DNA from: a virus
Direction: 5' to 3' (one strand)
Length of the DNA: 21,210 nucleotides
IMG/VR virus record: IMGVR_UViG_3300046360_000196
Coordinates: 1 to 21,210 of that record
The translations under genes were made by a program, and so were the position numbers. Below, one piece after another: positions 1 through 21,115 of the stretch. Each line of letters begins with the position of its first letter. Within the stretch, counting starts at the first letter, position 1. Under the pieces are notes generated by a model. That model was not told the origin of the DNA, made no database searches, and saw nothing but the letters and a program-made list of their open reading frames with translations.

Positions 1-1
1 T

Positions 2-187
2 GAGTTCCTTTGGGTTGTTCCAAGTAAATTAGTGTGTAAAATGTTTAAAGAACACGCGCTACAAATTGACGAATCTGAGCGTGTTTTAAGAGATTTTGTA
101 TTATCCTTTGAAGATGGTACTCTGTTAGCTAAAAGCAAGAGACTTAATGGTGAGCAAGAAAAGTCATTATTTCTTAAGTTAAGTTAA
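2..187 (+). CDS. C-terminal end of an unidentified phage gene (partial)
   Basis: An open frame runs in from the left edge and stops at TAA 185-187, giving about 61 residues ending in KSLFLKLS. The piece is charged and soluble, with no membrane segment. It lies 24 bases before the scaffold-like gene on the same strand. In many phages that place is held by the portal protein or a small protein after it, so a head role is likely, but I do not recognise the fragment and the portal idea rests only on position. The start lies outside the window. Confidence 0.65.
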   Translation, partial: EFLWVVPSKLVCKMFKEHALQIDESERVLRDFVLSFEDGTLLAKSKRLNGEQEKSLFLKLS

Positions 188-211
188 TTTTATGCATATA
201 AAGGAGTATTA

Positions 212-901
212 ATGCAAGAAGAATTACAATTAGAACAACAAATACAAGAACAGCCACAAGATCAAGAGCTTGAGCAATCGCCAGAAGCAAACGATGCAGC
301 CGTTGAGCAAGAGAAGAATAATTCACGAGAACGTAACTTCGCTTCGCTTCGCAATGCAAAGGAACTTGCTGAGAAAGAACGTGATGCTTATTATAAAAAA
401 CTTCAGGAAATAGAGCAGTCTCAAAAAGCAGCCCGTATCGAACTGGGCGATGATGACCTAGCTGAAGGTAGACATGTTAAAGAACTGAAGAAAGAATTAG
501 AATCATATAAGCTCGAAATGCAGCAAGTTGCGATTGAAACACGTCTTAAAAATAATTTCCCTGATTTTGATTCAGTTGTTAATAAAGACACGATAGCTCA
601 ATTGCGTACTGCGTATCCAGAAATAGCAGCTACGTTGAGTGCATCGAATGATCTTTATAATACGGCCGCTTCCGCATATACTATGATAAAGAAATTAGGT
701 ATTTATGATAATGCTGCTGATTATAATTCAAACCGTTCTTCATTATTAAAAAATTCACTCAAGCCGCGTCCTTTAACTAGTGTTTCTCCTCAGCAAGCTG
801 ATAGTCCTTTGTCTCAGGCTAATGCATTTGCAAATGGTCTGACCAAAGAGTTAAAACAAAAACTTTATCAAGAAATGATTGAAGCGCGCAAAGCGGTATA
901 A
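212..901 (+). CDS. Putative capsid scaffold-like protein
   Basis: This 229-residue protein begins at ATG 212 after the Shine-Dalgarno AAAGGAG. Residues 1-45 are extremely rich in Gln and Glu. About residues 46-105 are charged and helical, likely coiled coil (RERNFASLRNAKELAEKERD and following). A middle part has NNFPDFDSVV and an alternating helical stretch, and the end is basic (LKQKLYQEMIEARKAV). Acidic coiled-coil N-terminus, basic C-terminal helix and position directly before the major capsid gene are the classic signs of a phage scaffolding protein, which guides capsid assembly and then leaves. A strong terminator follows it. No protease motif is visible. The role is inferred from composition and position rather than from a recognised domain. 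Confidence 0.7.
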   Translation: MQEELQLEQQIQEQPQDQELEQSPEANDAAVEQEKNNSRERNFASLRNAKELAEKERDAYYKKLQEIEQSQKAARIELGDDDLAEGRHVKELKKELESYKLEMQQVAIETRLKNNFPDFDSVVNKDTIAQLRTAYPEIAATLSASNDLYNTAASAYTMIKKLGIYDNAADYNSNRSSLLKNSLKPRPLTSVSPQQADSPLSQANAFANGLTKELKQKLYQEMIEARKAV

Positions 902-927
902 TTCATTCTTTTAAGTACACGTCTCAG

Positions 928-981
928 TACCCTGTGTTATCATTTTTTTCAGATTTCATGAATAGCACGGGGTATTTTTTT
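928..981 (+). terminator. Rho-independent terminator after the scaffold gene
   Basis: A 13-bp stem (928-940 with 962-974, two G-U pairs, no mismatches) with a 21-base loop is followed at once by seven Ts (975-981). It separates the scaffold transcript from the capsid transcript. Confidence 0.85.
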
Positions 982-1004
982 AAAAATTCTTGTTTTCCAG
1001 TCGC

Positions 1005-1124
1005 ATGATACGGTATAGTAAAGCAGATATAAAGTACTTTTGTGCTTTGTGTCGCATGCGTAAAGGGTTTCGCAATCCCTCACTATTCTTTAAGGCTGTA
1101 TGTAAGTGTTCGCCTACTTATTGA
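1005..1124 (+). CDS. Possible 39-aa Cys-rich (zinc-knuckle-like) mini-protein
   Basis: A short frame begins at ATG 1005 (a TTG at 990 is in frame) and ends at TGA 1122-1124. It encodes 39 residues with CALC at 13-16 and CKC at 33-35, a C-x2-C ... C-x-C spacing that could bind one zinc ion. It is very basic between the cysteines (RMRKGFR). The neighbouring virion proteins are almost free of cysteine, so the pattern is unlikely to be drift of a structural gene. Against it: no Shine-Dalgarno site precedes the ATG, and part of the frame can fold into RNA hairpins (for example 1031-1037 with 1042-1048). It may be a real small gene or simply the capsid leader. Confidence 0.35.
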   Translation: MIRYSKADIKYFCALCRMRKGFRNPSLFFKAVCKCSPTY

Positions 1125-1149
1125 CCGTATTTAAGACTCGTCATCTTAT
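1121..1149 (+). promoter_or_regulatory. Candidate sigma70-type promoter for the capsid gene
   Basis: TTGACC (1121-1126), a 17-base spacer and TCTTAT (1144-1149) fit a bacterial promoter at the right distance from the capsid start at 1189. It lies just after a strong terminator, which makes a fresh promoter here expected. The -10 box is only a 4/6 match. Confidence 0.4.
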
Positions 1150-1188
1150 CGTTAAAACATTTTTTAACAATTGAAAAAGGAAACTAAG

Positions 1189-2136
1189 ATGGCTATAACA
1201 ACATCTTCAGAGTTACCTGCTCCAGTTCAGCAAAGCTTTTCATACAAGCTGCTTTCTGTACCGGTGCCAAACTTTATTCATAAGATACCTGCAATGAAGA
1301 AGTCGATGCCCCGCAATGGTGGTACAACGCTTCGTATGCGTCGGTACAATCCTTTAAATTCTGCATTAGTACCTTTAGGAAACAGTGGTGTAACTCCTCC
1401 CGCTCAGTTGCTTAGCGCGGTCGATATTGATGCTACAATCGATTTCTATGGTACCTATGTACAATTGAATGAACAGGTTACCTTACAAAACCAAGATCCC
1501 GTCCTTAATGAAGCTGCAGCTCGACTCGGTGTTTCTCTTCGTCAAACAGAAGATGAGCTTACCCGTAATATGCTTGCATCTACTGCTTCATTTATTAACT
1601 GTGTTGGTGGTGTTAATGGTGACAACCCTACTGAAATCACTCGTTCAGATGTTGATGAAGTGGTTCGTACATTGTTGAATAACAATGCATATACCATCAT
1701 GGATAACATTGAAGGTGAAGATAAGTTTGGTACTGCTCCTGTTCGTGATGCTTATTTTGCATTATGTTCAACTCAGTTGACCGGAAACCTAGATTCAGTT
1801 GCTGGATTTATACAGAAAAACCAATATCCATCTCCAATGAACGCTCTTCGTTCAGAATGGGGTGCTATTGGAAACCTTCGTTTCTTAATATCTTCTATTG
1901 GTTCAGTATCTCCTAATGCTTCTTCTAATGGTTCAGATGTGTATAACATCTTCTGTGTTGGTATGGAAGCATATGCTTGTATCGAACAAGATGGATACAG
2001 CGCAAGCTTTATTTATAGACCGCCAATATATGATGGTCCTCTTGCATTGAACGCTTCAGTTGGGTATAAGTTTGCGGAAGTTCCTAGAATTACCAATGAC
2101 TTATGGGTTATAAACTTACGTGCTACATTAGCTTAA
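1189..2136 (+). CDS. Major capsid protein, N4-gp56 type
   Basis: This 315-residue protein would form the icosahedral head shell. I chose ATG 1189 (MAITTSSE) because AAAGGAAA sits about eight bases upstream; an in-frame TTG at 1171 would place that ribosome site inside the gene. The first half carries the pattern seen in the N4-gp56 capsid family: a Gly-Gly stretch with a basic beta strand (GGTTLRMRRYNPL, about 44-56), a Pro/Gly-rich turn (SGVTPPAQ), a strand pair ending in YGTYVQLNEQV (about 98-108), then a long helix (NEAAARLGVSLRQTEDELTR) that forms the capsid spine. The C-terminal part has a second domain ending in WVINLRATLA. Length is somewhat short for the family but complete. It has its own terminator-promoter boundary upstream and is followed nine bases later by another virion protein. 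Confidence 0.85.
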   Translation: MAITTSSELPAPVQQSFSYKLLSVPVPNFIHKIPAMKKSMPRNGGTTLRMRRYNPLNSALVPLGNSGVTPPAQLLSAVDIDATIDFYGTYVQLNEQVTLQNQDPVLNEAAARLGVSLRQTEDELTRNMLASTASFINCVGGVNGDNPTEITRSDVDEVVRTLLNNNAYTIMDNIEGEDKFGTAPVRDAYFALCSTQLTGNLDSVAGFIQKNQYPSPMNALRSEWGAIGNLRFLISSIGSVSPNASSNGSDVYNIFCVGMEAYACIEQDGYSASFIYRPPIYDGPLALNASVGYKFAEVPRITNDLWVINLRATLA

Positions 2137-2145
2137 GGAGATAAT

Positions 2146-3120
2146 ATGGCTTATGATACCGTAATCCAACAGGGTAGTTTTACTTCTGATGGAACAACTA
2201 AATTATTAAGTATTCGTTCCGATGTTGACTGGATGTATGTATATAACTATACAAACGCTGGTGTTACCGACGACAATTCCGTAGAGTTCTATTGGCAACG
2301 AGGCATGGCGCCACTAGCTGGTGTACGTAAATTTAAAAGCGCTGGTGGTAACACGTTAAATGAAACGGTTATGACTACGACTGGATTTACCCTTGTTGAT
2401 ACTTCTACAAATCCATTAACTGCACGCGTTGCAATTACAGCCGGTACTAATATAACTAGACCAGTTTATTCTACCGGAAGTACTGCGGGGCTTGTTGAAG
2501 GCAGTGTAGTATTATTAACAAATCTTACTGGACAACAAGATTTATCTGGAATTGAATTCCAAGTAGGTACTATTGTTACAGATACAAGCTTTAAGCTATC
2601 TTATGCCCTTGCGAATGCTCCGGGAGCGGCAGCAACTGCTGGTTTCTGGCGCAAAGTTAAGTGGGATCCTATTTTCTATCCACGTAGAAGATTTGTAGCA
2701 AACATCTCTCAAGCTGTTGCTGCTGTTGTTACGTGTACGGTAGATCATGGGCTTACTGTTGGACAAAAGGTCCGTATGGTTGTCCCTGCAGTGTACGGAA
2801 TGGTACAAATGGATGGCCTGCAAGCTACCATTACTGCAGTTACTGCAAATACGTTCACTACGAATATTGATTCTAGTGCATTTACTGCATTTGTATTCCC
2901 TTTACCTGCTTCCGTTCCTTTCAGTCCATCACTAGTAGTTCCTTTTGGAGAAGATACTGCGCAAGCACTTTCTTCTGGAGCGAATATACTTGCTGATGCA
3001 ACTATTAATGAAGCTGTTATTGGTATGTTATTACCCGGTGGAGAAGATGCTCCTGGTGGTGCTGCTGAGAATGTTATGTATTGGAGAGCTGGAAAATCTT
3101 TCAGTGTCACTAATGTATAG
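2146..3120 (+). CDS. Virion protein with FCCH-like beta domain
   Basis: This 324-residue beta-rich protein starts at ATG 2146 behind AAGGAG and is likely co-transcribed with the capsid gene. The N-terminal part (MAYDTVIQQGSFTSDG) resembles proteins found directly after capsid genes in phages, perhaps decoration or head-completion proteins. At about residues 196-250 it has a small beta domain (DHGLTVGQKVRMVVP, then YGMVQMDG, then TANTFTTNIDSSAF). This matches the pattern often annotated in phages as a ubiquitin-activating-E1 FCCH-like domain, here a plain structural module and not an enzyme. The same module occurs in the genes at 3606 and 5714. The end, MYWRAGKSFSVTNV, is typical of a virion surface protein. 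The exact role is unknown. Confidence 0.75.
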   Translation: MAYDTVIQQGSFTSDGTTKLLSIRSDVDWMYVYNYTNAGVTDDNSVEFYWQRGMAPLAGVRKFKSAGGNTLNETVMTTTGFTLVDTSTNPLTARVAITAGTNITRPVYSTGSTAGLVEGSVVLLTNLTGQQDLSGIEFQVGTIVTDTSFKLSYALANAPGAAATAGFWRKVKWDPIFYPRRRFVANISQAVAAVVTCTVDHGLTVGQKVRMVVPAVYGMVQMDGLQATITAVTANTFTTNIDSSAFTAFVFPLPASVPFSPSLVVPFGEDTAQALSSGANILADATINEAVIGMLLPGGEDAPGGAAENVMYWRAGKSFSVTNV

Positions 3121-3133
3121 ATAAAACAATAAT

Positions 3134-3171
3134 TGGTCTGTGTAAAAAAGCGCTTCGTTTTACACAGACCA
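3134..3171 (+). terminator. Perfect 14-bp hairpin, likely terminator or attenuator
   Basis: Arms 3134-3147 and 3158-3171 are perfectly complementary around a 10-base loop. The hairpin lies 13 bases after the stop of the 2146 gene. Only a weak T-rich tail (GTCTTAAT) follows, so it may trim or stabilise the 3' end of the capsid mRNA rather than fully stop transcription into the gene at 3195. Confidence 0.6.
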
Positions 3172-3194
3172 GTCTTAATAAGAGGGAAAAATTA

Positions 3195-3602
3195 ATGCAA
3201 CAACCAATGGAAATAAAAAAAGACACGTTAAAGAAACCGGCCAAAAGTCATCGATGGAATAGAGATAAAGATCGAGAAATGGTTAAGGGTATGTTCAAAT
3301 TCTATGAAGTTACTGGTGGTCAATTATCTTTCTCTTTTCGTATGTACAAAGAAGACAAAGTAGAACGATATGACTTGGTTGATGGAGAAATTTATACTAT
3401 TCCTTTAGGAGTTGCTCGCCATCTTAATAAGAATGGTTGGTATCCAGTACATGCATATGTTATGAATGAACTAGGTGTTCCGGTATCAAGAATGGGACAA
3501 AAGAAGAGACGATTTGGATTTCAGTCATTAGAATTCATTGATATCGATGATTTAAGTGAAGACAATGGTAGTGGTATTATAACCGTAGAAAAGATTAGAT
3601 AA
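3195..3602 (+). CDS. Conserved phage structural-region protein, unknown function
   Basis: This 135-residue protein begins at ATG 3195 after AGAGGGA. The N-terminus is basic (WNRDKDREMVKGMFKFYEV, about 22-40), the middle is beta-rich (GGQLSFSFRMYKED, then LVDGEIYTIPLGVARHLNKN), and the C-terminus is acidic. The segment VDGEIYTIPLGVARHLN looks like a conserved core; the overall look is familiar from small proteins encoded beside N4-gp56-type capsid genes in environmental phages, but I can give no named family. It has no membrane segment. It lies in a packed run (three bases to the next gene), so a head-completion or connector role is inferred from position only. Confidence 0.75.
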   Translation: MQQPMEIKKDTLKKPAKSHRWNRDKDREMVKGMFKFYEVTGGQLSFSFRMYKEDKVERYDLVDGEIYTIPLGVARHLNKNGWYPVHAYVMNELGVPVSRMGQKKRRFGFQSLEFIDIDDLSEDNGSGIITVEKIR

Positions 3603-3605
3603 AAG

Positions 3606-3962
3606 ATGAGTGGATTTGCCGTTCGATATCCTATGTTTCAACCGGCCATGCGTTTGATCACTGCTATAAGTAATGCCCCTATAGCTATGGTAACAACCAG
3701 TTTTGATCATGATTATCTTGCTCAATTGGTCGTTCGTTTATATGTTCCGGAAGGCTGGGGTATGGTACAGGCCAATCATTTGGTGGGAATCATACTTGAA
3801 GTTCTTACTCCTACTACATTTATGATTTCCATCGATACGTCTTCATTCGATACGTTCAATTACCTTGATCCAGCTCCGTGGTATATTTCTCAATACGCCA
3901 TAGTTGTTCCGGTCGGTGAGCAAAATTCAACATTATTACAATCAACTAGAAATATTTTGTAA
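3606..3962 (+). CDS. Small virion protein with FCCH-like beta domain
   Basis: This protein of 118 residues is little more than one beta domain (about 30-83: TTSFDHDYLAQLVVRLYVPE, WGMVQANH, TPTTFMISIDTSSFDTF). That domain aligns by eye with residues 196-250 of the 2146 protein, so the two genes share a common module. ATG 3606 follows the previous stop by three bases and has no good Shine-Dalgarno site, which suggests translational coupling to the 3195 gene. A C-terminal tail (VPVGEQNSTLLQSTRNIL) matches the style of the other protein (VPFGEDTAQALSSGANIL), so the similarity continues beyond the core domain. It is likely a head or neck structural component. Confidence 0.75.
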   Translation: MSGFAVRYPMFQPAMRLITAISNAPIAMVTTSFDHDYLAQLVVRLYVPEGWGMVQANHLVGIILEVLTPTTFMISIDTSSFDTFNYLDPAPWYISQYAIVVPVGEQNSTLLQSTRNIL

Positions 3963-3977
3963 AAAAAGGAGAAGATA

Positions 3978-4919
3978 ATGGCACTTTCAGACTTGGATGC
4001 GATACGAAAAAAGGTTCGTAAATTAACGCAATCCCCTTCTGTTTCTCAATTGTCCGTATCTGATCTTGATGATTATATAAATACTTTTATTCGGTATGAT
4101 TTTCCTGAAATATTGAGAACTTTTAATCTTCATAAGCCGATCATCTTTAGTTTAGAACCTAATGTTGATACCTATACGATTGATTCTGTACTCGGGGATA
4201 TTAATAACTATATTACGTTTAATCCTCCTGTTTATATTGCTGGCTTTAAAGCAGCATTTTCTCAATCAGAAGAAGAATTTTATAATGTATATCCTTTCAA
4301 TAGCTCCATACAGGCCACAGCAAATTCTGGAGATGGCTCAACGTTTGTCTTTTCTGGTGTTCTTGCACAAGTTCCCATACTTCCGGGAAAAGTTGCATTT
4401 ACTGCCATTGGCGCAAACAATAATGGATTGATTTTACAGGATAGTGGTACCCCTACAGGGATACTTACGGGTGATGGTGTAGGAACGATCAACTATGTAA
4501 CGGGCGTTTATTCGTTAACTTTTAATAGTGCTCCAATTGGAGTTATAAACTCACAAACGGTACCGTACTCTGCTGGTCGTCCTACATCGATGCTCTTCTT
4601 TCAAAATAGTTTTACCTTTAGGCCCGTTCCAGACCAAGTATATCAAGTACAATTAGAAGCATTCATTCCCCCAATTGAATTAATAGCAGGAAATCAAAAT
4701 CCTGAACTCAATCAATGGGCTCAATATATCGCTTATGGAGCAGCAAAAAAGGTTCTTGAAGATAGGCTTGATACAACTACTTTAGCGGCGATACAACCGG
4801 AATTTAATCGTCAGGAAAGATTAGTACTAAGAAGGACAATTGTTCAGTTAACCAATGAACGGACTGCCTCTATTTATAATGGTTATGGAACTAATTTATT
4901 CTCTAATGAACGATTTTAA
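3978..4919 (+). CDS. Putative head-tail adaptor/neck protein with inserted beta domain
   Basis: This 313-residue protein starts at ATG 3978 behind AAAGGAGA. The N-terminal helices (DLDAIRKKVRKLTQSPS, then DLDDYINTFIRYDFPEILR) and the C-terminal helical part (QWAQYIAYGAAKKVLEDRLD, then QPEFNRQERLVLRR) look like a podovirus connector or tail-tube adaptor that docks under the portal. Between them, about residues 108-200, lies an inserted beta domain: TFVFSGVLAQVPILPGKV, then GILTGDGVGTINYVTGVYSL and a closing strand before PYSAGRP. That domain pattern (FSG..PI.PG, GTINY.TG) is found in many unrelated virion and baseplate proteins. Adaptor assignment rests on fold impression and gene order. Confidence 0.65.
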   Translation: MALSDLDAIRKKVRKLTQSPSVSQLSVSDLDDYINTFIRYDFPEILRTFNLHKPIIFSLEPNVDTYTIDSVLGDINNYITFNPPVYIAGFKAAFSQSEEEFYNVYPFNSSIQATANSGDGSTFVFSGVLAQVPILPGKVAFTAIGANNNGLILQDSGTPTGILTGDGVGTINYVTGVYSLTFNSAPIGVINSQTVPYSAGRPTSMLFFQNSFTFRPVPDQVYQVQLEAFIPPIELIAGNQNPELNQWAQYIAYGAAKKVLEDRLDTTTLAAIQPEFNRQERLVLRRTIVQLTNERTASIYNGYGTNLFSNERF

Positions 4920-5713: not shown

Positions 5714-7888
5714 ATGGCACGGCAACGTTTTATAATTGCACCCATTGAGACAGGTTTACAAGATAATGTTAAGCCATGGTTAATACCTGATGATGCATTC
5801 AAAACGTTAAAGAATGCCTATGTATACCGGGGACGATTACGTAAACGCTTTGGTTCACGCCTTCTTGATGAATCAGTTGAAACGCCACAATTAGCATCTC
5901 GATTACGTATAAAAATAGGCGTTACTAATGGATCGGGAAATTTAGGAGCAACGGCTCTTCCTATGACTCCGGTAGTAGGGCAATTGTTCTCTGCTGATGA
6001 TGTCATATTTACTGTCTATCAAAATGGATCAACATTGGTGGGCCGTGCGGGAAGTACGACTACGGCAACGGGAACGGTATCATTTGGTGGTGCTACTTTT
6101 GCCATAGGTGGATCGGATGCAACCATAGCAGGAGCTGATGTTTATTTTTATCCAGCTTTACCCGTTATGGGACTACTGACATTAGAAACTAATGAGATTA
6201 ATGATGATGGTATTTTGGGATTTGATACCATGTTCGCCTATACGTATGTATCAGGTGGCTGGGAAAGATTAGCTCTTGGTACCAGTACATGGACAGGGGA
6301 TGATAGTCAATTCTTTTGGGGTACGACGTATTATGGGACCGTGTTTTCAGATCCGCGATTCTTTGTGGTTAATTATAATGTTGGTGATGGTGTCCGCAAT
6401 TACAATCCTGCAACATTTACCTGGGCAACAGTAACCTATGTCACTACGGGAACTGACACTATTCAAACTGCCAGGATGGTTATCATCTTTAAAAATAGAT
6501 TATTATTGCTCAATACGTGGGAACTTGTAAGCGCAGTCTCTACTGCTTTTCCCGGTAGAATTAGATACTCTCAAATAGGTGATTTAATAAGTGCAGCAAA
6601 TACTTTTTCAGAAGCAAATGGTCGTGGTGGATTTCTTGATGCTCCTACAAAAGAAGTAATCGTTAGTGCGCGCATTATAAAAGATAGACTTATTATATTC
6701 TTTGAGCGAAGCACTTGGGAGCTTGTCTATCAAGGTGACCAAATTTCTCCCTTTGCCTTTCAGAAAATTGATTCAGAACTTGGAGCAGAGTCTACCTTTG
6801 CCTCCGTTATTTTTGGCACTGACATAGTTGGTGTAGGAAACGTTGGTATTCATGCATGTAATGGCGCCTACGTTCAACGCATAGACGATAAAATACCCAA
6901 CCTTGTGTTTGAGGTGCATAATTTAAATTCTGGCGTAGAGCGGGTTTATGGAGTTAGAGATTTTGAATCTGAAATGATATATTGGACCTTTCCTGACACG
7001 TCTCGCAATCCTAATAATGTTACGCCACGATATCCTAATCAAATTTTAGTCTTTAATTATAGAAACGGATCATGGTCTATCAATGATGATACGATAACTT
7101 GTTTTGGTTATTTCCAACAACAAGATCTTATTATCTGGTCTTCTATTGCGCAAACATGGGAAGATTATGATGAAAAATGGAATAGCGGTGATTTTCAGGC
7201 ATTAACGCGTCAGGTTATTGCAGGCAATCAAGAAGGATTTACCTTCTTTGTAAATATTAATCTTGCACGTAATGCACCTGCTCTTCAAATTACGCAATTA
7301 TCAGTTCCGGTATCTCGACCACGATTAACTATTATCGATCATAATTTCCTCGTTGGGGAATTTATACGCATTGAAGATTGCATCGGAAATACCTATCTTA
7401 ATGATAAAAACTATGAAATAGTACAAGTTGTTGATAAAGACAATATTGAAATTATTGAGCCAGCCTTTTCTTTGTCTCCAGCATATAAAGGTGGCGGAAC
7501 GGTAACACGTATAAGCCAGATAGATATTTGGACAAAGGATTATGATTTTTTCGTTAAAGAAGGAACCGGGGTATTTATTCCTCGCGTTGATTTTTTGGTT
7601 GATAGATCCGAGAATGGTCAGGTAACCATTGATTTATTTACTGCTTCATCTTCAAATTCGTCAGAATCATTTATTTTGGAAACTTCTCCGTATGCTCTCT
7701 ATCCAAATGAGGCAAGTCAAACGAGATTATGGCATCCGGTCTATACACAATCTCAAGGAGATACGGTTCAACTGCGTATATATTTAAGTACTGCTCAAAT
7801 GCTTGATTTTGAGGTAATACTTGCAGACTTTCAACTTAACGCTATGGTATTTCATGCACAAGAAAATGGCATAAGGTTGGGTGGATGA
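5714..7888 (+). CDS. Large tail protein, nozzle/tail-tubular-B-like with FCCH-like domain
   Basis: This 724-residue protein starts at ATG 5714 (site AGGAG). Its N-terminus (MARQRFIIAPIETGLQDNVK, then AYVYRGRLRKRFGSRLL) is the pattern of podovirus tail-tube/nozzle proteins. The centre has beta-propeller-like blades, with strands such as KNRLLLLNTWEL (about 258), KDRLIIFFERSTWELVY (about 324) and VGNVGIHACNGAYVQRIDDK (about 374-393). At about residues 535-597 there is a third copy of the FCCH-like module (IDHNFLVGEFIRIEDCIGN, then YLNDKNYEIVQVVDKDN and a GGG turn). It probably forms the tail tip that opens on adsorption. It is the last gene of its operon and is followed by a palindrome and a terminator. 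Confidence 0.7.
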   Translation: MARQRFIIAPIETGLQDNVKPWLIPDDAFKTLKNAYVYRGRLRKRFGSRLLDESVETPQLASRLRIKIGVTNGSGNLGATALPMTPVVGQLFSADDVIFTVYQNGSTLVGRAGSTTTATGTVSFGGATFAIGGSDATIAGADVYFYPALPVMGLLTLETNEINDDGILGFDTMFAYTYVSGGWERLALGTSTWTGDDSQFFWGTTYYGTVFSDPRFFVVNYNVGDGVRNYNPATFTWATVTYVTTGTDTIQTARMVIIFKNRLLLLNTWELVSAVSTAFPGRIRYSQIGDLISAANTFSEANGRGGFLDAPTKEVIVSARIIKDRLIIFFERSTWELVYQGDQISPFAFQKIDSELGAESTFASVIFGTDIVGVGNVGIHACNGAYVQRIDDKIPNLVFEVHNLNSGVERVYGVRDFESEMIYWTFPDTSRNPNNVTPRYPNQILVFNYRNGSWSINDDTITCFGYFQQQDLIIWSSIAQTWEDYDEKWNSGDFQALTRQVIAGNQEGFTFFVNINLARNAPALQITQLSVPVSRPRLTIIDHNFLVGEFIRIEDCIGNTYLNDKNYEIVQVVDKDNIEIIEPAFSLSPAYKGGGTVTRISQIDIWTKDYDFFVKEGTGVFIPRVDFLVDRSENGQVTIDLFTASSSNSSESFILETSPYALYPNEASQTRLWHPVYTQSQGDTVQLRIYLSTAQMLDFEVILADFQLNAMVFHAQENGIRLGG

Positions 7889-7924
7889 TAAAATAATGTT
7901 AGTCTTTTACTAGCGCTTGATATG

Positions 7925-7942
7925 CGGGCCCGGCCGGGCCCG
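7925..7942. repeat. 18-bp perfect GC-only palindrome
   Basis: The segment CGGGCCCGGCCGGGCCCG is a perfect palindrome made only of G and C, inside an AT-rich gap between two convergent genes. As RNA it can fold to a 7-bp stem with a GGCC loop. No T-tract follows, so it is not itself a normal terminator; the true terminator lies at 7988. It may be a protein-binding site or a recombination or nicking site. The function is unknown. Confidence 0.75.
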
Positions 7943-7987
7943 GAATCTACAGAGATATTTATACTATTTTTACTTTCCTTTTGTGCG

Positions 7988-8023
7988 CCACCATATGATT
8001 CGCTCTGTGGTGGTTTTCTTTTT
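7988..8023 (+). terminator. Terminator of the tail operon
   Basis: A 6-bp GC-rich stem (CCACCA at 7988-7993 with TGGTGG at 8008-8013) is followed by TTTTCTTTTT (8014-8023). It ends + strand transcription just before the 3' end of the convergent gene, and its T-tract overlaps that gene's stop codon. Confidence 0.75.
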
Positions 8024-8558
8024 ATTGAATAATCCATTCCAATATTACATAAGTGATAGTGTAGGCACTTTTGTTGCTGTGCGTTGTTATATTTACATTG
8101 GTAGTATCCGCATTTAATTCAATGACATCTCCTGCGGTAGTTGATGCATAGGGTAAGGGGATAAAAGAGGTGTTGGGATTAGTTGCTGTTGCATAAATTC
8201 TGGTGAAAGAAAATAATGCATCAATAACGATGCCATGTGGTACTGACTTTGTGGTATTATTAGGGAGTGCTCCAAAGTTTATTACTTTTCTTAATACATT
8301 TCTGTAGGTAGGTAATCGTGAAGTTGTGGAATTTAATGCTTGATTAGGGAAAAAGACTTGTCCGTTTGCCGTCTCATCCAAAATGTAGTAGCCCGTATCT
8401 TTTAAGTTAACCGCTATATTAATATTATTTATTGATTGTCTTAATCGAGTAATAAAGTTCCTAAATTCATCAGGAGATTTAATAATTTCTCGGGTATCAA
8501 TTGAATCAAATACGTCAGTTGTATTAAGATAAAGACCATCACGTATAGAATTTGCCAT
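8022..8558 (-). CDS. Virion-type protein on the opposite strand
   Basis: This 178-residue protein starts at the ATG at 8558 (MANSIRDG), chosen because AAAAGGAG stands about eight bases upstream; a longer frame to 8612 lacks such a site. It begins with NTTDVFDSIDTREI, has a helix (DEFRNFITRLRQSINNINIA), then KDTGYY, NGQVFFPN and a beta-rich second half (RKVINFGALPNNTTKSVPHG, FIPLPYAS, VILEWIIQ). The block VINFG.LPN..TKSV.HG with a final strand ending in ILE is one I associate with small structural proteins of podovirus-like phages, possibly fibre-tip or base proteins; no named family is claimed. It is the only virion-like gene on the minus strand, cut off by a terminator on one side and a divergent promoter gap on the other. 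Confidence 0.75.
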   Translation of the reverse strand: MANSIRDGLYLNTTDVFDSIDTREIIKSPDEFRNFITRLRQSINNINIAVNLKDTGYYILDETANGQVFFPNQALNSTTSRLPTYRNVLRKVINFGALPNNTTKSVPHGIVIDALFSFTRIYATATNPNTSFIPLPYASTTAGDVIELNADTTNVNITTHSNKSAYTITYVILEWIIQ

Positions 8559-8580
8559 TTGGCTCCTTTTTATCTTCGTG

Positions 8581-8625
8581 ATTATAAAATGTATATAGTA
8601 CGCTCTATACAAGATGACATATAAT
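8581..8625. promoter_or_regulatory. Divergent promoter region (two TATAAT boxes)
   Basis: The 89-base gap between the divergent starts at 8558 and 8648 holds a perfect TATAAT on each strand: minus strand at 8586-8581 and plus strand at 8620-8625. Convincing -35 boxes are not seen. Between them lies a short inverted repeat (TATAG ... CTATA, 8594-8609), a possible operator. Confidence 0.35.
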
Positions 8626-8647
8626 TTTATAAAAAGGAGAATTTATT

Positions 8648-9250
8648 ATGGTCGGTTTAGGGTTATTGGGAGGCGGATTATTGTCGGCTATACTTGGTGC
8701 TTTAGGTGGCGCAGCAGGTAATTCTTATCTAAATTCTAATCAACAAAATAATAATCAATCTTTTGGCGGATTCAATAATAATGCTGGCGGAGGTTCATTT
8801 TCAAGTCTTCCGCGCGGAGGTAGTTTAGGAAATTTCTCTGCATTAAACCAAGGCCAACAGAATGTTCAGAATCAGTTATTATCTCTTTTAGGATCTCAAT
8901 TAGGGCAAGCAGACAATGGTAATGATCCTCTTGCTCAATATTCACAACGACAATTTCAAAACCAGGGATTGCCCCAATTACTAGAACGGTTTACGCAACA
9001 CGGTAGCACACTTCAGGGGTCAGGAGCACGCAACTCTATTATAAATGCTCAAGCAGACATATCGAGCCAGCTGGGTGCACAACGATATCAAACATTGCAA
9101 AATTTATTGGGCACTGCACTTAATCCTTCAACTAATCAGGTCTATATGCCGCGAGATGGGAGCGGAATCGAAGGATTATTAAAAGGTCTTTCCGGTGGTG
9201 TAGGAAGTACGTTGCCACTTTTTGCCGCTAAATATGGTATTGGGTTTTAA
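8648..9250 (+). CDS. Internal virion/ejection-type protein
   Basis: This 200-residue protein starts at ATG 8648 (site AAAGGAGA). Residues 1-25 are a Gly/Leu/Ala-rich hydrophobic segment (VGLGLLGGGLLSAILGALGG) that could insert into a membrane. Residues 30-65 are low-complexity Asn/Gln/Gly. The helical rest contains YSQRQFQNQGLPQLLERFTQ followed by GSTLQGSGARNS and Leu-rich helices. This core (F...LP.L.ERF...GS...G.R.S) is typical of small podovirus proteins that are packed in the head and ejected with the DNA to form a channel, comparable in role to P22 gp7. A host-membrane pore role is inferred. It is followed 14 bases later by the second ejection-type gene. Confidence 0.7.
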   Translation: MVGLGLLGGGLLSAILGALGGAAGNSYLNSNQQNNNQSFGGFNNNAGGGSFSSLPRGGSLGNFSALNQGQQNVQNQLLSLLGSQLGQADNGNDPLAQYSQRQFQNQGLPQLLERFTQHGSTLQGSGARNSIINAQADISSQLGAQRYQTLQNLLGTALNPSTNQVYMPRDGSGIEGLLKGLSGGVGSTLPLFAAKYGIGF

Positions 9251-9264
9251 TAATAAGGTTTATA

Positions 9265-10734
9265 ATGGCTTTACAAATACTTCGACAACAAAATCCTGCT
9301 AATCAAATTGGTGAATCTTTTGGCTCTGGCCTTGGAAGTGGATTGCAGAACCTTGCTCAAATGAAATTTAATGAAATGCAACAAAGGCAATTGGGTCAAC
9401 AACTTGAAAAAGCTGGTTTTCCTGCATTATTATCTCAACTAGATCCAAGAGTTCAAGCTGCTTATTTAAGAGAATATGGGGCGAGGCAGCAAGGACAATT
9501 GGGACAATATGGCGCAAATGAACAAATAGGTCCACAACAAAATGATGACATCAGTACTCTTTTGCACAGTGTTATTTCAGGAGGACGCGGACCACAAGCT
9601 TCTCAGCAGATGCAGAATGAACTATCACCTTTACAGCAACTTCTTCAACCTCAACAACAAATGCCTTCCGCACAAAATATGCAAACTCAACAGCCCGTGC
9701 ACCAACAAAGTGGTATTGAGCATATTTTACAAGCATTGCAGCAACAATTATCAAATCAACCTAATCAACAGATTGCTCGATTAGCACTTCAACCTAATCA
9801 ACAAACTTCTGTGCCACAGCACCAAGCAGCACCAGTTCCGTCTGCTTCCATTGCTAATCCTGTTTCCAAAGAAGTTTTACCAAAAAAAGAAGAGAATGAA
9901 TCAGCAAAGAAAATAGTAGAATCATTTAAACCAGCTGATAAGAATGAACTTAAGAAACTTTCCCCGGGGGCAAAGGCAGCTGAAGAAAGTGAAGCATTTG
10001 AAAAGAAACTAAATAGTTTAAATATCTCTGACAGTATAAAAGAAGCAGCTCGTGAGAGATTAGAAAAACGACATGAAAAATTAATCAAGCAGCAAGATAA
10101 AATTGATGATGCTACTAAAGATTATTATGACGACTTGTTGAAACAAAATAAGGGTGCTATTGAGGGAGATATTCGTCTTGGTAGAATACAAGAACTGATT
10201 GATACCGGAAATCTTAATCATCCTATAACTTTTAATTTTTTAGACAAACTTGCTCACGGAATAAAAGGTGTTGGTCTTGATTTAAAAGGTGGGCTTTTAA
10301 GTCCCGAATCACAAGAACTTGAAAAACTCTCAACAGATTTCTTAAGAAATGCCAAGGATTACTTTGGGAATAGAATAACTCAGCAAGAAGTTAACATATT
10401 TCTAAAAACAATCCCCTCTTTAACGCAATCTGATGAAGGTAAAGAACGCGTGATTAGAAATATGCACCTCTTTAATGAAGTCGGAAAAACACGTTATGAG
10501 ACAGCTCAGCAAATCATAGAACGAAATAAAGGATTTAGGCCGCACGATCTTGCGCAACAAGTTGAACAACAGGTAAAACCGCTTGTAAATGATATTGCAC
10601 AACGATTTAAACGTGACATAAGAACCGCTGAATTGGTTGCCAAAAGACAAGCAGAAAATGCTTTAACCGAAAAGCATAAAAAGGAAGCGCAAGAAAGAAG
10701 AGAGAAATCAGGAATTAAGCCGCTACCTTTTTAA
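9265..10734 (+). CDS. Large Gln-rich internal virion/ejection-type protein
   Basis: This 489-residue protein starts at ATG 9265 (site AAGG). Residues 1-80 are helical with a Gly-rich start (GESFGSGLGSGLQNLAQ) and QQ-rich coiled coil. Residues 80-190 are Gln-rich low complexity. About 200-290 are highly charged helix. About 290-460 form a folded helical domain with RIQELIDTGNLNHPITFNFL, then STDFLRNAKDYFGNRITQQE, VNIFLKTIPSLTQSDEGKER and a final HDLAQQVEQQVKPLVNDIA. That domain pattern is widespread in phage proteins beside ejection genes. Together with the preceding gene it likely forms the DNA-ejection set. Its stop overlaps the convergent mini-gene by four bases. Confidence 0.7.
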   Translation: MALQILRQQNPANQIGESFGSGLGSGLQNLAQMKFNEMQQRQLGQQLEKAGFPALLSQLDPRVQAAYLREYGARQQGQLGQYGANEQIGPQQNDDISTLLHSVISGGRGPQASQQMQNELSPLQQLLQPQQQMPSAQNMQTQQPVHQQSGIEHILQALQQQLSNQPNQQIARLALQPNQQTSVPQHQAAPVPSASIANPVSKEVLPKKEENESAKKIVESFKPADKNELKKLSPGAKAAEESEAFEKKLNSLNISDSIKEAARERLEKRHEKLIKQQDKIDDATKDYYDDLLKQNKGAIEGDIRLGRIQELIDTGNLNHPITFNFLDKLAHGIKGVGLDLKGGLLSPESQELEKLSTDFLRNAKDYFGNRITQQEVNIFLKTIPSLTQSDEGKERVIRNMHLFNEVGKTRYETAQQIIERNKGFRPHDLAQQVEQQVKPLVNDIAQRFKRDIRTAELVAKRQAENALTEKHKKEAQERREKSGIKPLPF

Positions 10735-12347: not shown

Positions 12348-12398
12348 AAAATATGTTAGTAATTTGGTAGTATAAGTTCCAAATTACTAACATATTTT
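12348..12398. terminator. 20-bp perfect inverted repeat after the first fibre gene
   Basis: Arms 12348-12367 and 12379-12398 match perfectly over 20 bases around an 11-base loop. The stem is AT-rich, with A-run and T-run ends included in the arms, so it can act as a terminator in both directions. It lies nine bases after the fibre stop and 18 bases before the next start. Confidence 0.65.
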
Positions 12399-13334: not shown

Positions 13335-16300
13335 ATGTCATATATGACACAATTCGATATTAATGGAGTCTTAAGTCCTATAACTTCTATTACGGGAAAT
13401 ACTGGTGAAGCGTTTCCTGTCGATGGCAATGTAAATATATTAGGAGCTAATTTAATTTCAACCGATGGATCAGGAGATACGCTTACCATATCGCTTGATA
13501 ATGGAACTGATGGTCAATTGATTATCGGCGGCGGTACAGATCCTGAATGGGCAGATTTAACATCTACCGGTGGAACTATTGTTTTCACTCCTGGTCCTAA
13601 TAGTTTAAATTTAGAGACTTCAGATGAAGTAGCTACTTCTTATGATACCGATTCAGGTACTGCAGTTCCCGCTTTAAATGTCTTAAATATATTGGGTGGC
13701 ACCGGAATCACTACTTCAGGTTCAGGTAATACGATTACTATCACCAATGATGCACCCGCTGATGATCTTACTATAACCGGTAACAGTGGTGGCCCTATTT
13801 CCCCTTCTTTGGATAATTGGAATTTAGTAACGGCTAATTCTACCATGGAAGTTGTAGGTTCTGGATCGACATTAACAATGGATTTTGGTTTAAGCAATCT
13901 ATTGTTAGGTGCTGATGCTGTATCAATAACTTCGGGAATTGATAATACAGGGCTTGGTTTTTTATCCGGAAATTCCATAACATCGGGAAATGAAAATACA
14001 TTAATCGGCCGCCAATGTGGTCCATCAATAACGACAAGTACGGGAAATACCGGTGTTGGACCCTTTACCTTATTTAATTTATCCACATCTTCCAATTATA
14101 ATATAGCTATTGGAGGAGGCGTTCTTGCTTCATTAACAACCGGAACGGGACGAAACGTTGGTGTTGGACATGATAGTTTAGTCTTTTTGCAAGGTGGATC
14201 TTTTAATGTTGCGTTAGGTGATAATGCAGGATCATTAATCACTGGATCTGAATCCGGTAATATTTATATCAATCATTTTGGAATTGTTGGAGAAAGTAAT
14301 ACATTACGTATCGGAGCATTTACAGGGTCAGGAAGCCAACAATTAAACGCTGCTTATATATACGGTATTGATGGCGTTAACGTAGGATCTGTTGCTAAAG
14401 TAGTAACTATGGCATCTGACAAACTTGGAACGGCTACTATAACCGCTGGAACAGGTATTACGGTTACACCTGGCGCGAATACGATTACTATCGCAAATAG
14501 TTCACCTGCTTCTGCATTGACCATAACGGGTAATAGCGGAGGTGCCATTTCTCCTTCTGCAGGTAATTGGAACTTAGTAACCAGTAATAGTACGGTTAAA
14601 GTTGTGGGGTCCGGATCCACATTAACAATGGATTTTGGGTTAAGTAATCTATTATTAGGATCAAATGATACTGCAATAACTACGGGCAGTTTAAATACAG
14701 CTCTTGGTTCTCTAGCGGGAGATTCTTTAACATCCGGAGCTGCAAATACATTAATAGGATACCTATCGGGGCAATTAATAACGACAAGTCAGAATAATAC
14801 TGGTTTGGGTACCCGATCATTAGGAAGTTTGACTAGTACTTCAGATGATAACGTAGCAATAGGACAGGCATCTCTCTTTTCAGCTACCAGTGGAACTACG
14901 CGTAATACTGCCGTAGGAACATCAAGTCTATCTGGAATAAATGGTGGAGACGATAATGTTGCTTTAGGTTGGTCTGCAGGATCAAATAATACTGGATCTG
15001 ATTCTAGCAATATTTATGTTAATAACTTTGGAACTCTAGGCGAATCTAATAAATTACGCATTGGGGCAGCGACGGGAACAGGAAGTCGACAATTAAATGC
15101 CGCATATATTTGTGGTATTGATGGTGTCAATGTAGGGTCTGTTGCAAAAGTTGTTACGATGGCCTCAGATCAGCTTGGTACTGCGACCATAACTGCTGGT
15201 ACAGGTATTACGGTCACTCCAGGCGCTAATACCATTACGATTGCCAACAGTTCACCCGGATCAGCCCTTACTATAACAGGTAACAGTGGTGGTGCCATTT
15301 CTCCTGCTGCTGGTAATTGGAACTTGGTAACGGCGAATTCTACTATGAAAGTAGTAGGTTCAGGATCAACTTTGACCATGGATTTTGGATTAAGTAATCT
15401 ATTTTTAGGGTCGAATGGCGCTTCAATAGCCGGAGCAACTGACAATACTGCTCTTGGAGTCCTTGCGGGAAATGCTATAACATCTGGAACGGAGAATACA
15501 TTAATAGGAGCCGAATGTGGCCGATTAATAACGTCGAGTATTAATAATACTGCGGTAGGTTCCTTTGCTTTATGGCAATTAACCACGTCATCTAATGACA
15601 ACGTCGCCATTGGTGAGGGTGTTCTCTCAGCAGCAACAACAGGAACAGCAAACAATACCGGTGTCGGAACATTTAGTTTATTTTCTTTAAATGGCGGATC
15701 GTATAACGTTGCCGTTGGATATAACACCGGAGCAAATAATACCGGTTCTGACTCTAGTAATATTTATATTAATAATTCAGGAACTGCCGGAGAATCTCAT
15801 GTGTTGCGTATTGGCTCTGCCACTGGTGCCGGTAATCAACAATTAAACACTGCTTATATATGTGGTATTGATGGTGTCAATGTTGGATCTGTCGCTAAGG
15901 TAGTGACCATGGCATCCGATAAACTCGGAACTGCTACAATAACTGCTGGTTCAGGTATTACGGTAACTCCTGGTGCCAATACGATTACTATTGCAGCTTC
16001 TGGTGGTGGCGCGGGAACTATAACCGGTAACACTGGTGGTGCTATTTCGCAATCTGCGGGCAATTGGAACTTAGTAACTGCTAATGCTACAGTTCAAGTT
16101 GCAGGATCTGGATCAACTCTGACCATGGATTTTGGATTAGATAATCTATTATTAGGTGCAGATGCTACAGGGATAACTACTGCAAATCAAAATACAGCCC
16201 TTGGTTTCTTATCAGGAGATGGCCTAACATCAGGTGATGAAAATACATTAATAGGATGTGAATGTGGCCCAGTAATAACGTCCAGTCAGAGGAATACGAG

Positions 16301-16997
16301 CGTAGGATCCTTTGCTTTATGGAGATTAACCAGTTCATCCGATGACAATATAGCTATTGGAGAAGGTGTACTTTCCACGGCAACAACAGGCACGACACGT
16401 AATACTGCTGTCGGAACGTTTAGTTTATTTTCTTTGAATGGCGGATCCTATAATATTGCAGTAGGTTATAACACCGGAGCAAATAATACTGGATCAGATT
16501 CTAGTAATATTTACATGAATAATGCTGGTACAGCAGGAGAATCTAATACATTACGTATAGGTTCTGCAACGGGGACTGGTAATCAACAGGTAAATACAGC
16601 AATAATTTGTGGTATTAATGGACAGACATCGGCTAGTGGTGTTCCTGTTCTTATTAATGCGTCAGATGTTTTAGGAACTACCGTATCTTCAATAAAATAT
16701 AAAACTAATGTTAAAGATATGGGTGATACTTCTGCTCCTATTTATAAATTAAGGCCGGTCACCTTTAATTTGAAAGAAGATGAAAAAAGAGTAACGACAG
16801 CTGATGCTCAATTAACACAATATGGATTAATAGCAGAAGAAGTTGTTTCGGTTATGCCTGATTTAGTCCATTATACACAAGATGGTGAGATTAATTCTGT
16901 GCGTTACCTTAATTTAATTCCTATGCTTTTAAATGAAATCCAAAAATTGCGTAAAGACTGTGATGCGTTATTAGCTCTTAAAGTAAAGGTATTATAA
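13335..16997 (+). CDS. Giant tail fibre with four ~250-aa repeats and S74 chaperone
   Basis: This 1220-residue protein starts at ATG 13335 (site AAGGATT). Residues 1-145 are a beta-rich N-terminal part (TGNTGEAFPVDGNVNILG, GQLIIGGGTDPEWADLTS). From about 147 come four large repeats of 250, 250, 249 and about 200 residues. Each begins TGNSGG.ISPS..NWNLV and then has six rungs of the type NTALG..AG..LTSG, like the head of trimeric adhesins, ending in NIYINN..GESN.LRIG and a linker (CGIDGVNVGSVAKVVTMAS). The C-terminus (1118-1220, SSIKYKTNVKDMG ... QYGLIAEEVVSVMPDLVHY ... RYLNLIPMLLNEIQKL) is a peptidase S74 intramolecular chaperone, which trimerises the fibre and cuts itself off. By family pattern the cut would lie before Ser1118, with Lys1123 as partner. 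The product is probably the main receptor-binding fibre. Confidence 0.85.
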   Translation: MSYMTQFDINGVLSPITSITGNTGEAFPVDGNVNILGANLISTDGSGDTLTISLDNGTDGQLIIGGGTDPEWADLTSTGGTIVFTPGPNSLNLETSDEVATSYDTDSGTAVPALNVLNILGGTGITTSGSGNTITITNDAPADDLTITGNSGGPISPSLDNWNLVTANSTMEVVGSGSTLTMDFGLSNLLLGADAVSITSGIDNTGLGFLSGNSITSGNENTLIGRQCGPSITTSTGNTGVGPFTLFNLSTSSNYNIAIGGGVLASLTTGTGRNVGVGHDSLVFLQGGSFNVALGDNAGSLITGSESGNIYINHFGIVGESNTLRIGAFTGSGSQQLNAAYIYGIDGVNVGSVAKVVTMASDKLGTATITAGTGITVTPGANTITIANSSPASALTITGNSGGAISPSAGNWNLVTSNSTVKVVGSGSTLTMDFGLSNLLLGSNDTAITTGSLNTALGSLAGDSLTSGAANTLIGYLSGQLITTSQNNTGLGTRSLGSLTSTSDDNVAIGQASLFSATSGTTRNTAVGTSSLSGINGGDDNVALGWSAGSNNTGSDSSNIYVNNFGTLGESNKLRIGAATGTGSRQLNAAYICGIDGVNVGSVAKVVTMASDQLGTATITAGTGITVTPGANTITIANSSPGSALTITGNSGGAISPAAGNWNLVTANSTMKVVGSGSTLTMDFGLSNLFLGSNGASIAGATDNTALGVLAGNAITSGTENTLIGAECGRLITSSINNTAVGSFALWQLTTSSNDNVAIGEGVLSAATTGTANNTGVGTFSLFSLNGGSYNVAVGYNTGANNTGSDSSNIYINNSGTAGESHVLRIGSATGAGNQQLNTAYICGIDGVNVGSVAKVVTMASDKLGTATITAGSGITVTPGANTITIAASGGGAGTITGNTGGAISQSAGNWNLVTANATVQVAGSGSTLTMDFGLDNLLLGADATGITTANQNTALGFLSGDGLTSGDENTLIGCECGPVITSSQRNTSVGSFALWRLTSSSDDNIAIGEGVLSTATTGTTRNTAVGTFSLFSLNGGSYNIAVGYNTGANNTGSDSSNIYMNNAGTAGESNTLRIGSATGTGNQQVNTAIICGINGQTSASGVPVLINASDVLGTTVSSIKYKTNVKDMGDTSAPIYKLRPVTFNLKEDEKRVTTADAQLTQYGLIAEEVVSVMPDLVHYTQDGEINSVRYLNLIPMLLNEIQKLRKDCDALLALKVKVL
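13779..16625 (+). repeat. Four tandem coding repeats, period 750/750/747 bases
   Basis: The same point of the TGN motif recurs at 13779, 14529, 15279 and 16026. The copies keep their protein pattern but differ at many third codon positions, so they are old and held by selection. Copies 3 and 4 are the most alike in their second halves (GEGVLS, GTFSLFSLNGGSYN, GYNTGANNTGSDSSNIY). The last copy loses the linker and runs into the S74 part. Confidence 0.85.
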
Positions 16998-20206: not shown

Positions 20207-21115
20207 TTAAGGTAAGAATGTAAGAGACATTCCAATAGCACCAGCTTTTACTGCCAGAGCTTCTACTGCTGCTGCAATTCCTCCACCTATACTTAGGGCT
20301 GGCGTAGAAGTCGCTGCAGCCCCTAGTGACCCTATACCAACATAAACTGAATTAGCATCCATATTACCAAGCATAAATTCTGATGTTGAAGCAATGGAAT
20401 TCCCAACGTCTCCTGTTGGAGCCCAAGGCATGCGGTCAAAAGCTGCATCAATCGCTGCATCAGTAGGGTTAAATGTGACAGGAATATCCGGAAGTCCATT
20501 TCTTCCTGGTACTATTGATGGCGCTCCAGTAATTGCCGTTACTGCTGCTTTTGTTGCGAACTTTGCGGCGCCCCACAAGATACAATAAGCTCCCGCTCTT
20601 ACTGTTCCGTAGAATACAGCAGCCGCAACAGGACCTGCGCCTCTTACATTACCACTCGCATTGATAGCAAATTCTTCAGATTCTCCACCAGTTAATTCTT
20701 TAATATCAAAACGGACTGCTCTGTTTTGTGCTAATTTTAGAATATCTTCTTTTGAAAGATCTCTAATTAAAGGATCTACGAATGCTTTATCTACTTCATA
20801 TCTCTTATTGTCTTTAATAACATTGAATCCCTCGTCATCAATCACTATGAACGGGTCGTTATTATCATTATCCGTTTTCCCTATTATTACGCCACGTCTT
20901 GCTTCTTCTTTCTTGGCAAAAAAAGAAGGTCTTGTGGGCATTGGTTTAATAGATTTTGGTTGATAATGCGTTGATTCATATATCATTTCTCTCGTAAGAG
21001 GAACCGATAAAGGTGCTCTATTAGGGTTACGAGATCCTGTTAATGTGAACATGTTTATTAAAATAATATTTAATGTAACAGCTAGTGTAATAAGCTGATG
21101 CTTTTGAATTCTCAT
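20207..21115 (-). CDS. Secreted or membrane-anchored protein, unknown
   Basis: This 302-residue protein starts at the ATG at 21115 (site CAGGGG). Residues 8-27 (LITLAVTLNIILINMFTLTG) form a signal anchor or signal peptide after a short basic head. The middle (30-150) is charged and probably soluble (VIIGKTDNDNNDPFIVIDDE, KAFVDPLIRDLSKEDILKLA). Residues about 155-190 are Ala-rich and hydrophobic (GPVAAAVFYGTVRAGAYCIL). A Pro/Asp-rich stretch follows, and the C-terminus is Gly/Ala-rich and hydrophobic (SIGGGIAAAVEALAVKAGAI). This amphipathic pattern could be a membrane-inserting or effector-like protein. No enzyme motif is visible. Nothing links it to virions. Confidence 0.7.
   Translation of the reverse strand: MRIQKHQLITLAVTLNIILINMFTLTGSRNPNRAPLSVPLTREMIYESTHYQPKSIKPMPTRPSFFAKKEEARRGVIIGKTDNDNNDPFIVIDDEGFNVIKDNKRYEVDKAFVDPLIRDLSKEDILKLAQNRAVRFDIKELTGGESEEFAINASGNVRGAGPVAAAVFYGTVRAGAYCILWGAAKFATKAAVTAITGAPSIVPGRNGLPDIPVTFNPTDAAIDAAFDRMPWAPTGDVGNSIASTSEFMLGNMDANSVYVGIGSLGAAATSTPALSIGGGIAAAVEALAVKAGAIGMSLTFLP

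Follow-up and report, generated by a model that had tools for sequence, protein, structure and literature searches.

What is an 18-bp perfect palindrome composed only of G and C doing in the AT-rich gap where two genes of a virus run towards each other? The question is raised by the record of an uncultivated virus, possibly a genome fragment, which appears podovirus-like from a reading of its gene set. The window, meaning the whole stretch of DNA that was analysed, is this entire record of 21,210 bases (38% GC). Its major capsid gene (1189-2133; phrog_1357, 4e-32; Pfam PF25209) is followed by a gene at 2146-3120, here called the capsid follower. Further on lie the gene of a 724-aa virion protein (5714..7888, + strand; phrog_3287 virion structural protein, 4.4e-22; no Pfam match), referred to as the tail gene, a reversed gene of 178 aa (8022..8558, - strand; no PHROG or Pfam match) and a gene encoding an S74 chaperone domain (13335-16997). 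The tail gene and the reversed gene are convergent, so that two 3' ends meet at the gap that holds the palindrome.

The palindrome and its gap

The palindrome, CGGGCCCGGCCGGGCCCG, is its own reverse complement, occupies exactly positions 7925-7942 and exceeds in length every other perfect palindrome of the window. It lies within a 20-nt run of G and C only (7924-7943), the next longest such run in the window being 10 nt, while the DNA around it has 35%, 34% and 35.5% GC when 50, 100 and 200 bases are taken on each side. An earlier note on this DNA had described just such a GC-only palindrome in an AT-rich gap and had held its chance origin to be very unlikely. The description was confirmed: the feature does exist in the assembled sequence, and its composition is unusual. 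The judgement on chance is borne out for the composition, with no G+C-only palindrome in 2000 simulated first-order Markov windows (independent-base expectation ~1e-6) and an 18-nt G+C-only run in 0.1% of them; palindrome length alone is not rare, perfect palindromes of at least 18 bp being expected 0.14 times per window and seen in 13% of the 2000, and none of these figures is a clean P value because the feature was chosen post hoc.

Further copies, which the note had proposed to look for, are few. The window holds a single match with up to three mismatches allowed (100 shuffles gave none), and the palindrome is absent from all 114 relatives examined, including those with the reversed gene. 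Exact matches in viral contigs were restricted to 10 stretches, all in contigs of 65-73% GC, in a search that may have left out records closely similar to the window; three of these contigs (L003, L005 and L006) have one common flank and the remaining matches have other flanks. A pattern of the two palindrome flanks with 0-30 bases between them gave no match, blastn of window positions 7000-9300 matched no phage record, and neither an Rfam family at gathering level nor a tRNA was found in the window. A restriction-site reading was rejected, as neither GGCC (29 seen, 25.2 expected) nor CCGG (62 seen, 47.4 expected) is avoided.

By the open reading frames found, the gap is intergenic and 133 nt long, extending from the stop of the tail gene at 7888 to that of the reversed gene at 8022-8024. 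As RNA from either strand, the palindrome is predicted to form a 7-bp all-GC stem with the loop GGCC, its foot standing 36 nt past the tail gene stop. The fold of the bare 18-mer has -14.9 kcal/mol; with eight flanking bases on each side this becomes -18.1 kcal/mol on the + strand and -16.9 on the - strand. Folds as good were given by 1/30 shuffles of the whole gap and by 4 and 5/200 shuffles of the local 34 bases, a lead that is modest because GC content alone yields stable folds. The stem is followed by GAATCTACAG on the + strand and CATATCAAGC on the - strand; in agreement with the earlier note, no T run directly adjoins it on either.

Two further hairpins were predicted on the + strand. 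The upstream one (7898..7914) is a 6-bp stem with the loop CUUUU (-4.5 kcal/mol, 2/200 shuffles as good). The third (7987..8014) reaches -13.3 kcal/mol, is equalled by 0/200 shuffles and is followed by TTTTCTTTTT; it is likely to be the intrinsic terminator of the + strand tail transcript, and it corresponds to the separate terminator that the note had placed close by. A consensus terminator scan of 7850-8060 listed no terminator-like site, this hairpin included. The fold of 7880-8040 as a whole has z = -2.9, with 0/200 shuffles as good. No structure of the gap is stronger on the - strand than the palindrome: beyond it there is only a 4-bp stem (-0.9 kcal/mol, no better than shuffles), then a U-rich stretch, AUUAUUUU, some 27 nt past the palindrome.

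Gene layout and hairpins among relatives

Relatives were gathered with the capsid protein, from which the best 80 of 578 related stretches were used (L013-L092), and with the reversed gene, which gave 20 loci (L093-L112), some of them repeats or weak; cellular genomes added five. The tail protein was matched in 55 of 91 loci, and those in which the match reached residue 690 and was accompanied by a reversed-gene match were kept (39 and the window); one further locus reached residue 690 without a reversed-gene match. Of the 51 loci with both genes, the window included, 18 have the small gene reversed and the other 33 have it forward. This requires two changes of orientation on the tail-protein tree (shuffled mean, 15) and six on the small-gene tree. 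The tail-protein tree is a quick one, in which the branch uniting the window's 16 reversed-gene rows has a support of 86; L093, L095, L099 and L101 were excluded as duplicates from the tree and from the survey of long palindromes, and near-copies remain elsewhere. Because so few changes are needed on the tail-protein tree, the convergent layout is probably old and common to the clade. Nor is a chimeric join implied, since in 18 of the 51 loci the tail gene is followed by a reversed gene. The palindrome itself may be a later feature of this record, or may have been replaced in the other relatives.

The gap between the tail gene and the reversed gene varies from 0 to 1208 nt among relatives, and its content varies too. 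In L037, L056, L069, L082 and L084, where 440-760 nt follow the tail gene before the next one, a small additional gene seems to lie in the gap; its start looks by eye like a signal peptide in L037, L056 and L084. Genes for tRNA-Glu (TTC) were seen in two relatives (L021:17070-17145 and L064:9694-9768), one inside the gap between the tail gene and the reversed gene and one shortly before the capsid gene.

At three of the 18 convergent loci, namely L042, L064 and L097, the two genes leave no gap, and no notable hairpin is seen. For the other 15 the best hairpin was compared with 30 shuffles of the segment at each locus, and it was reached by at most one shuffle in nine of them: the window, L021, L052, L056, L061, L067, L075, L082 and L098. 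The remaining six (L037, L054, L060, L069, L084 and L103) did not pass, and together with the three gapless loci they indicate that a hairpin in the convergent gap is not obligatory. The hairpin sequences look unrelated from locus to locus. L061, the nearest relative on the tail-protein tree, has a different GC-rich hairpin in a gap of 41 nt; the hairpin of L021 lies 818 nt into a gap of 1208 nt; and the gap of L067 holds a stem with runs of A and T at its feet, resembling a bidirectional terminator. The earlier note had counted unrelated sequence in relatives against the feature, and their sequence at this place is indeed unrelated, but hairpins are frequent there all the same.

Hairpins of -15 kcal/mol or lower occur within 72 nt of the tail stop in 6/15 loci with a reversed neighbour (window included) and 3/25 with a forward neighbour, and at -10 kcal/mol or lower the counts are 11/15 and 9/25, so that the excess beside a reversed neighbour is a tendency and not universal. 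In a survey of 93 loci, 12 palindromes had at least 18 bp and at least 55% GC; nine of them, that of the window among them, lay between genes, compared with the 9.7% of the DNA that a mechanical ORF count puts outside coding sequence.

A strong hairpin also stands behind the capsid follower of the window (3134..3171, + strand; -21.3 kcal/mol, 0/200 shuffles as good). Hairpins of -15 kcal/mol or lower were found after this gene in 64 of 73 loci, these rows representing 62 distinct picks, compared with 7 of 73 stretches inside the gene. Picks for the junction surveys and for the arm comparison below were automatic, and some rows took the neighbour of an obvious stem. A U tract is absent in 54 of the 64, and by eye their sequence is almost wholly different except among near-copies. 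The strands of the stem are not alike: the 5' arm carries the G in 271 of 350 GC pairs (the other 79 being C-G) of 54 distinct hairpins, which are distinct strings and not independent lineages; 47 hairpins are G-rich on the 5' arm, five are the reverse and two are even. Loops of the type cUNCGg on a 5-bp stem, sought in the 80 capsid relatives (best 80 of 578), were found at 13 places on the capsid-gene strand, about eight of these being distinct, and at none on the other. Five of the 13 lie ~2.0 kb after the capsid start, which is the capsid-follower junction, and the other eight elsewhere. The G-rich 5' arms, and UNCG loops confined in the relatives to the capsid-gene strand, speak for the capsid-region hairpins of this family acting as RNA rather than DNA.

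This arm bias is absent from ten convergent-gap hairpins (28 against 33 pairs), as would be expected if they served both strands; the difference from the capsid-follower hairpins has a Fisher P of 1.5e-6, computed on pooled pairs that are not independent. The ten come from those of the 18 convergent loci whose best hairpin is -15 kcal/mol or lower, L054 and L060 being included despite failing the shuffles.

Not all gene junctions of these viruses carry a strong hairpin. An excess was found after the scaffold-like gene (36/73 against 2/71 inside the gene), the tail gene (9/40 against 0/40) and the small reversed gene (12/40 against 1/40), with a weaker one after the gene at 9265 (4/17 against 2/17). 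Directly after the capsid gene, hairpins of -15 kcal/mol or lower numbered 0/80, and after the genes at 3195, 3606, 3978 and 5101 they numbered 2/70, 5/62, 0/58 and 3/35.

A proposed two-way barrier at the 3' ends and its rivals

Of the three options offered by the earlier note (a binding or cleavage site, a hairpin protecting the mRNA 3' end, a remnant of recombination), protection of the 3' end is the best supported, because relatives often have different hairpins in the convergent gap and a near-universal, RNA-like hairpin stands elsewhere. We put at about an even chance the reading that the palindrome is a transcript-end hairpin of the convergent gap that acts, without a U tract, as a barrier at mRNA 3' ends in both directions. 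Transcription from either side would yield the same 7-bp all-GC stem and 4-nt loop. The U-tailed hairpin at 7987-8014 would terminate the tail-gene mRNA on the + strand, with the GC hairpin standing 44 nt earlier as a second barrier that would keep 3'-5' exonucleases out of the tail gene. The reversed-gene message on the - strand has no strong U-tailed hairpin in the gap, which would make the GC hairpin the main candidate for fixing and protecting the 3' end of that message. We infer transcription from both sides, formation of the hairpin in RNA and blocking of the exonuclease; against a barrier it can be said that the + strand terminator hairpin could already do the protecting. The strand symmetry of a perfect palindrome suits a site where two messages end, but it is no separate evidence, as such a sequence is symmetric by construction, and selection on the hairpin cannot be shown because its sequence is not conserved and the site has no second copy.

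The palindrome is most likely a conspicuous case of a type of element already known, not a new system. REP/BIME units are a repeated family of GC-rich intergenic palindromes said to protect mRNA 3' ends; the palindrome is likewise GC-rich and intergenic, but single in its record. Structured RNA is also placed in the gaps of structural blocks by terminators of phages and by RNase III sites close to late genes, for example T-phi and the R sites of T7. The palindrome resembles these as a predicted structured RNA in the gap of a structural gene block and differs from them in having no U tract and only a 7-bp stem, which is short for RNase III. Closer likenesses are offered by exonuclease-blocking hairpins of E. 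coli. The galE hairpin, with an 8-bp stem and a 4-nt loop, is described as blocking exonuclease (PMC11925234), and stabilised 3' ends in E. coli operons are reported to be marked by hairpins without a U tract, malE being an earlier case (PMC5927463). With galE and the malE-malF intercistronic structure the palindrome shares a short stable stem and a small loop near a gene end; it too forms a stable hairpin soon after a stop codon and has no U tract directly after the stem. Unlike them, it lies between convergent genes, is the same on both strands and belongs to a virus of other bacteria. The E. coli report places 17 of 26 protective structures inside the next coding sequence, and its authors warn that the RNases of other lineages differ (PMC5927463). 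Terminator strength has also been linked to the stability of the upstream mRNA (PMC11696848).

The main rival to a 3'-end barrier is a bidirectional terminator or pause site, at which the hairpin, with hardly any U tract or none, would halt polymerase arriving from either side; this is possible, though we do not think it probable. Bidirectional intrinsic terminators of convergent genes, with a hairpin between two 3' ends that is usable from both strands, are described as established in bacteria (PMC5381666), and the convergent position, the identical sequence on both strands, the ten convergent-gap hairpins without arm bias, the A and T runs at the stem feet in the same gap of L067 and the U-rich stretch on the - strand are all in keeping with one here. 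The palindrome, however, offers the GC-rich stem of an intrinsic terminator (7 GC pairs) without the U tract right after it, and neither an A tract nor a U tract adjoins the stem on either side. A-rich tracts are reported to mark bidirectional terminators, though they are rarer in Gram-negative bacteria (PMC12207403). Those of B. cereus are described as more conserved than one-way terminators (PMC5381666), whereas the palindrome is not conserved, and the U-tailed hairpin 44 nt further on serves the + strand.

The absence of the palindrome sequence from the 114 relatives bears on the other explanations in different ways. It would fit a neutral oddity, that is, a functionless chance insertion rich in G+C or a hairpin-templated tract in a fast-changing gap, as would a gap whose length (0 to 1208 nt) and contents differ among relatives; we consider this unlikely, given that a 20-nt G+C run is itself very improbable in the composition of the window and that long GC-rich palindromes of these viruses lie in gaps far above expectation. 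The same absence, together with the lack of a second copy in the record, speaks against a site used as DNA, whether bound by a dimeric protein, nicked or cut in packaging, or extruded as a cruciform. A perfect palindrome without a loop is symmetric as DNA, and GGGCCC occurs in the window only within it, twice, but the strand bias and RNA-type tetraloops of the related hairpins are not needed by a DNA site, which makes this option decidedly unlikely. An assembly or sequencing artefact would explain why the palindrome in this context occurs only in this record, and the palindrome has no independent witness because the near-identical contig L013 (99.4% identical over window positions 1-4612) stops at 4612. 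The flanks, however, are the correct neighbours, in the layout of 18/51 loci, and an 18-mer is shorter than usual assembly k-mers; an artefact is very unlikely. The earlier note had also suggested that the palindrome might have been left behind when recombination reversed the neighbouring gene. The palindrome does adjoin that gene, but the reversed orientation is clade-wide (two tail-tree changes against a shuffled mean of 15), the palindrome accompanies the rearrangement in none of the 114 relatives, which are more distant than sister genomes would be, and the window holds no second copy with up to three mismatches. The inverted-repeat scan spans repeats up to 200 bases apart, a range too short for a matching arm at the far end of the gene. 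A scar of this kind is hardly credible, and the suggestion was abandoned.

The wider pattern, a possible host and other observations

By itself the palindrome is a curiosity; following it revealed a hairpin kept at a fixed junction by nearly all relatives while its sequence turns over, and this family-wide pattern is more interesting than the palindrome alone. It suggests, tentatively and with more doubt than the barrier reading, that in a podovirus-like clade, possibly of Chlamydiota, levels of structural-gene mRNA may be set by hairpins conserved in position and free in sequence. One-way hairpins with a G-rich 5' arm, sometimes with UUCG-type loops, would cap the capsid-region message, and strand-symmetric palindromes would cap two convergent messages. 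Confirmation would make it a simple and testable example in which selection acts on the stability and direction of an RNA structure and not on its sequence; it would also offer a way into the study of how phages express their genes in hosts that are difficult to culture.

The host lead comes from cellular genomes. Five matches fell in MAGs or bins: three are Chlamydiota (titled Simkaniaceae, Parachlamydiaceae and Parachlamydia) and the other two are a Methanomicrobiales bin and a Methylococcaceae bin. Capsid matches were found in 4 of 147 genomes drawn from the order of the MAG holding L114, two of them being MAGs already known. Since binning errors are possible, a Chlamydiota host is a lead and not proof. 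The tRNA-Glu of L021 was matched in one of the five MAG genomes (that of L117, 77%) and in none of the three Chlamydiota MAGs, which makes it no guide to the host. In the listed titles and abstract openings of literature on phage intercistronic hairpins near capsid genes, Dependentiae phages and tailed Chlamydiae phages, the clade was not recognised; its absence from print is not claimed.

In the MAG contigs the capsid gene is interrupted, with one insert at L114:3821-5895, three at L115:9225-11376 and four at L116:10001-12739. The inserts measure ~200-1130 nt, and some lie at matching capsid positions. Those of L115 and L116 have common stretches by eye and gave us the impression of being group-I-intron-like; across the five MAG loci Rfam gave no intron at gathering level, and the stretches of L114 and L116 gave nothing at E <= 1. 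In the window, a 302-aa gene on the minus strand (20207-21115) has no Pfam match and no tblastn match in the 91 loci. An inverted repeat was also noted at 12348-12398, just past a gene ending at 12339: it is perfect over 20 nt with an 11-nt spacer, starts with AAAA and ends with TTTT, and from its sequence looks like a bidirectional terminator.
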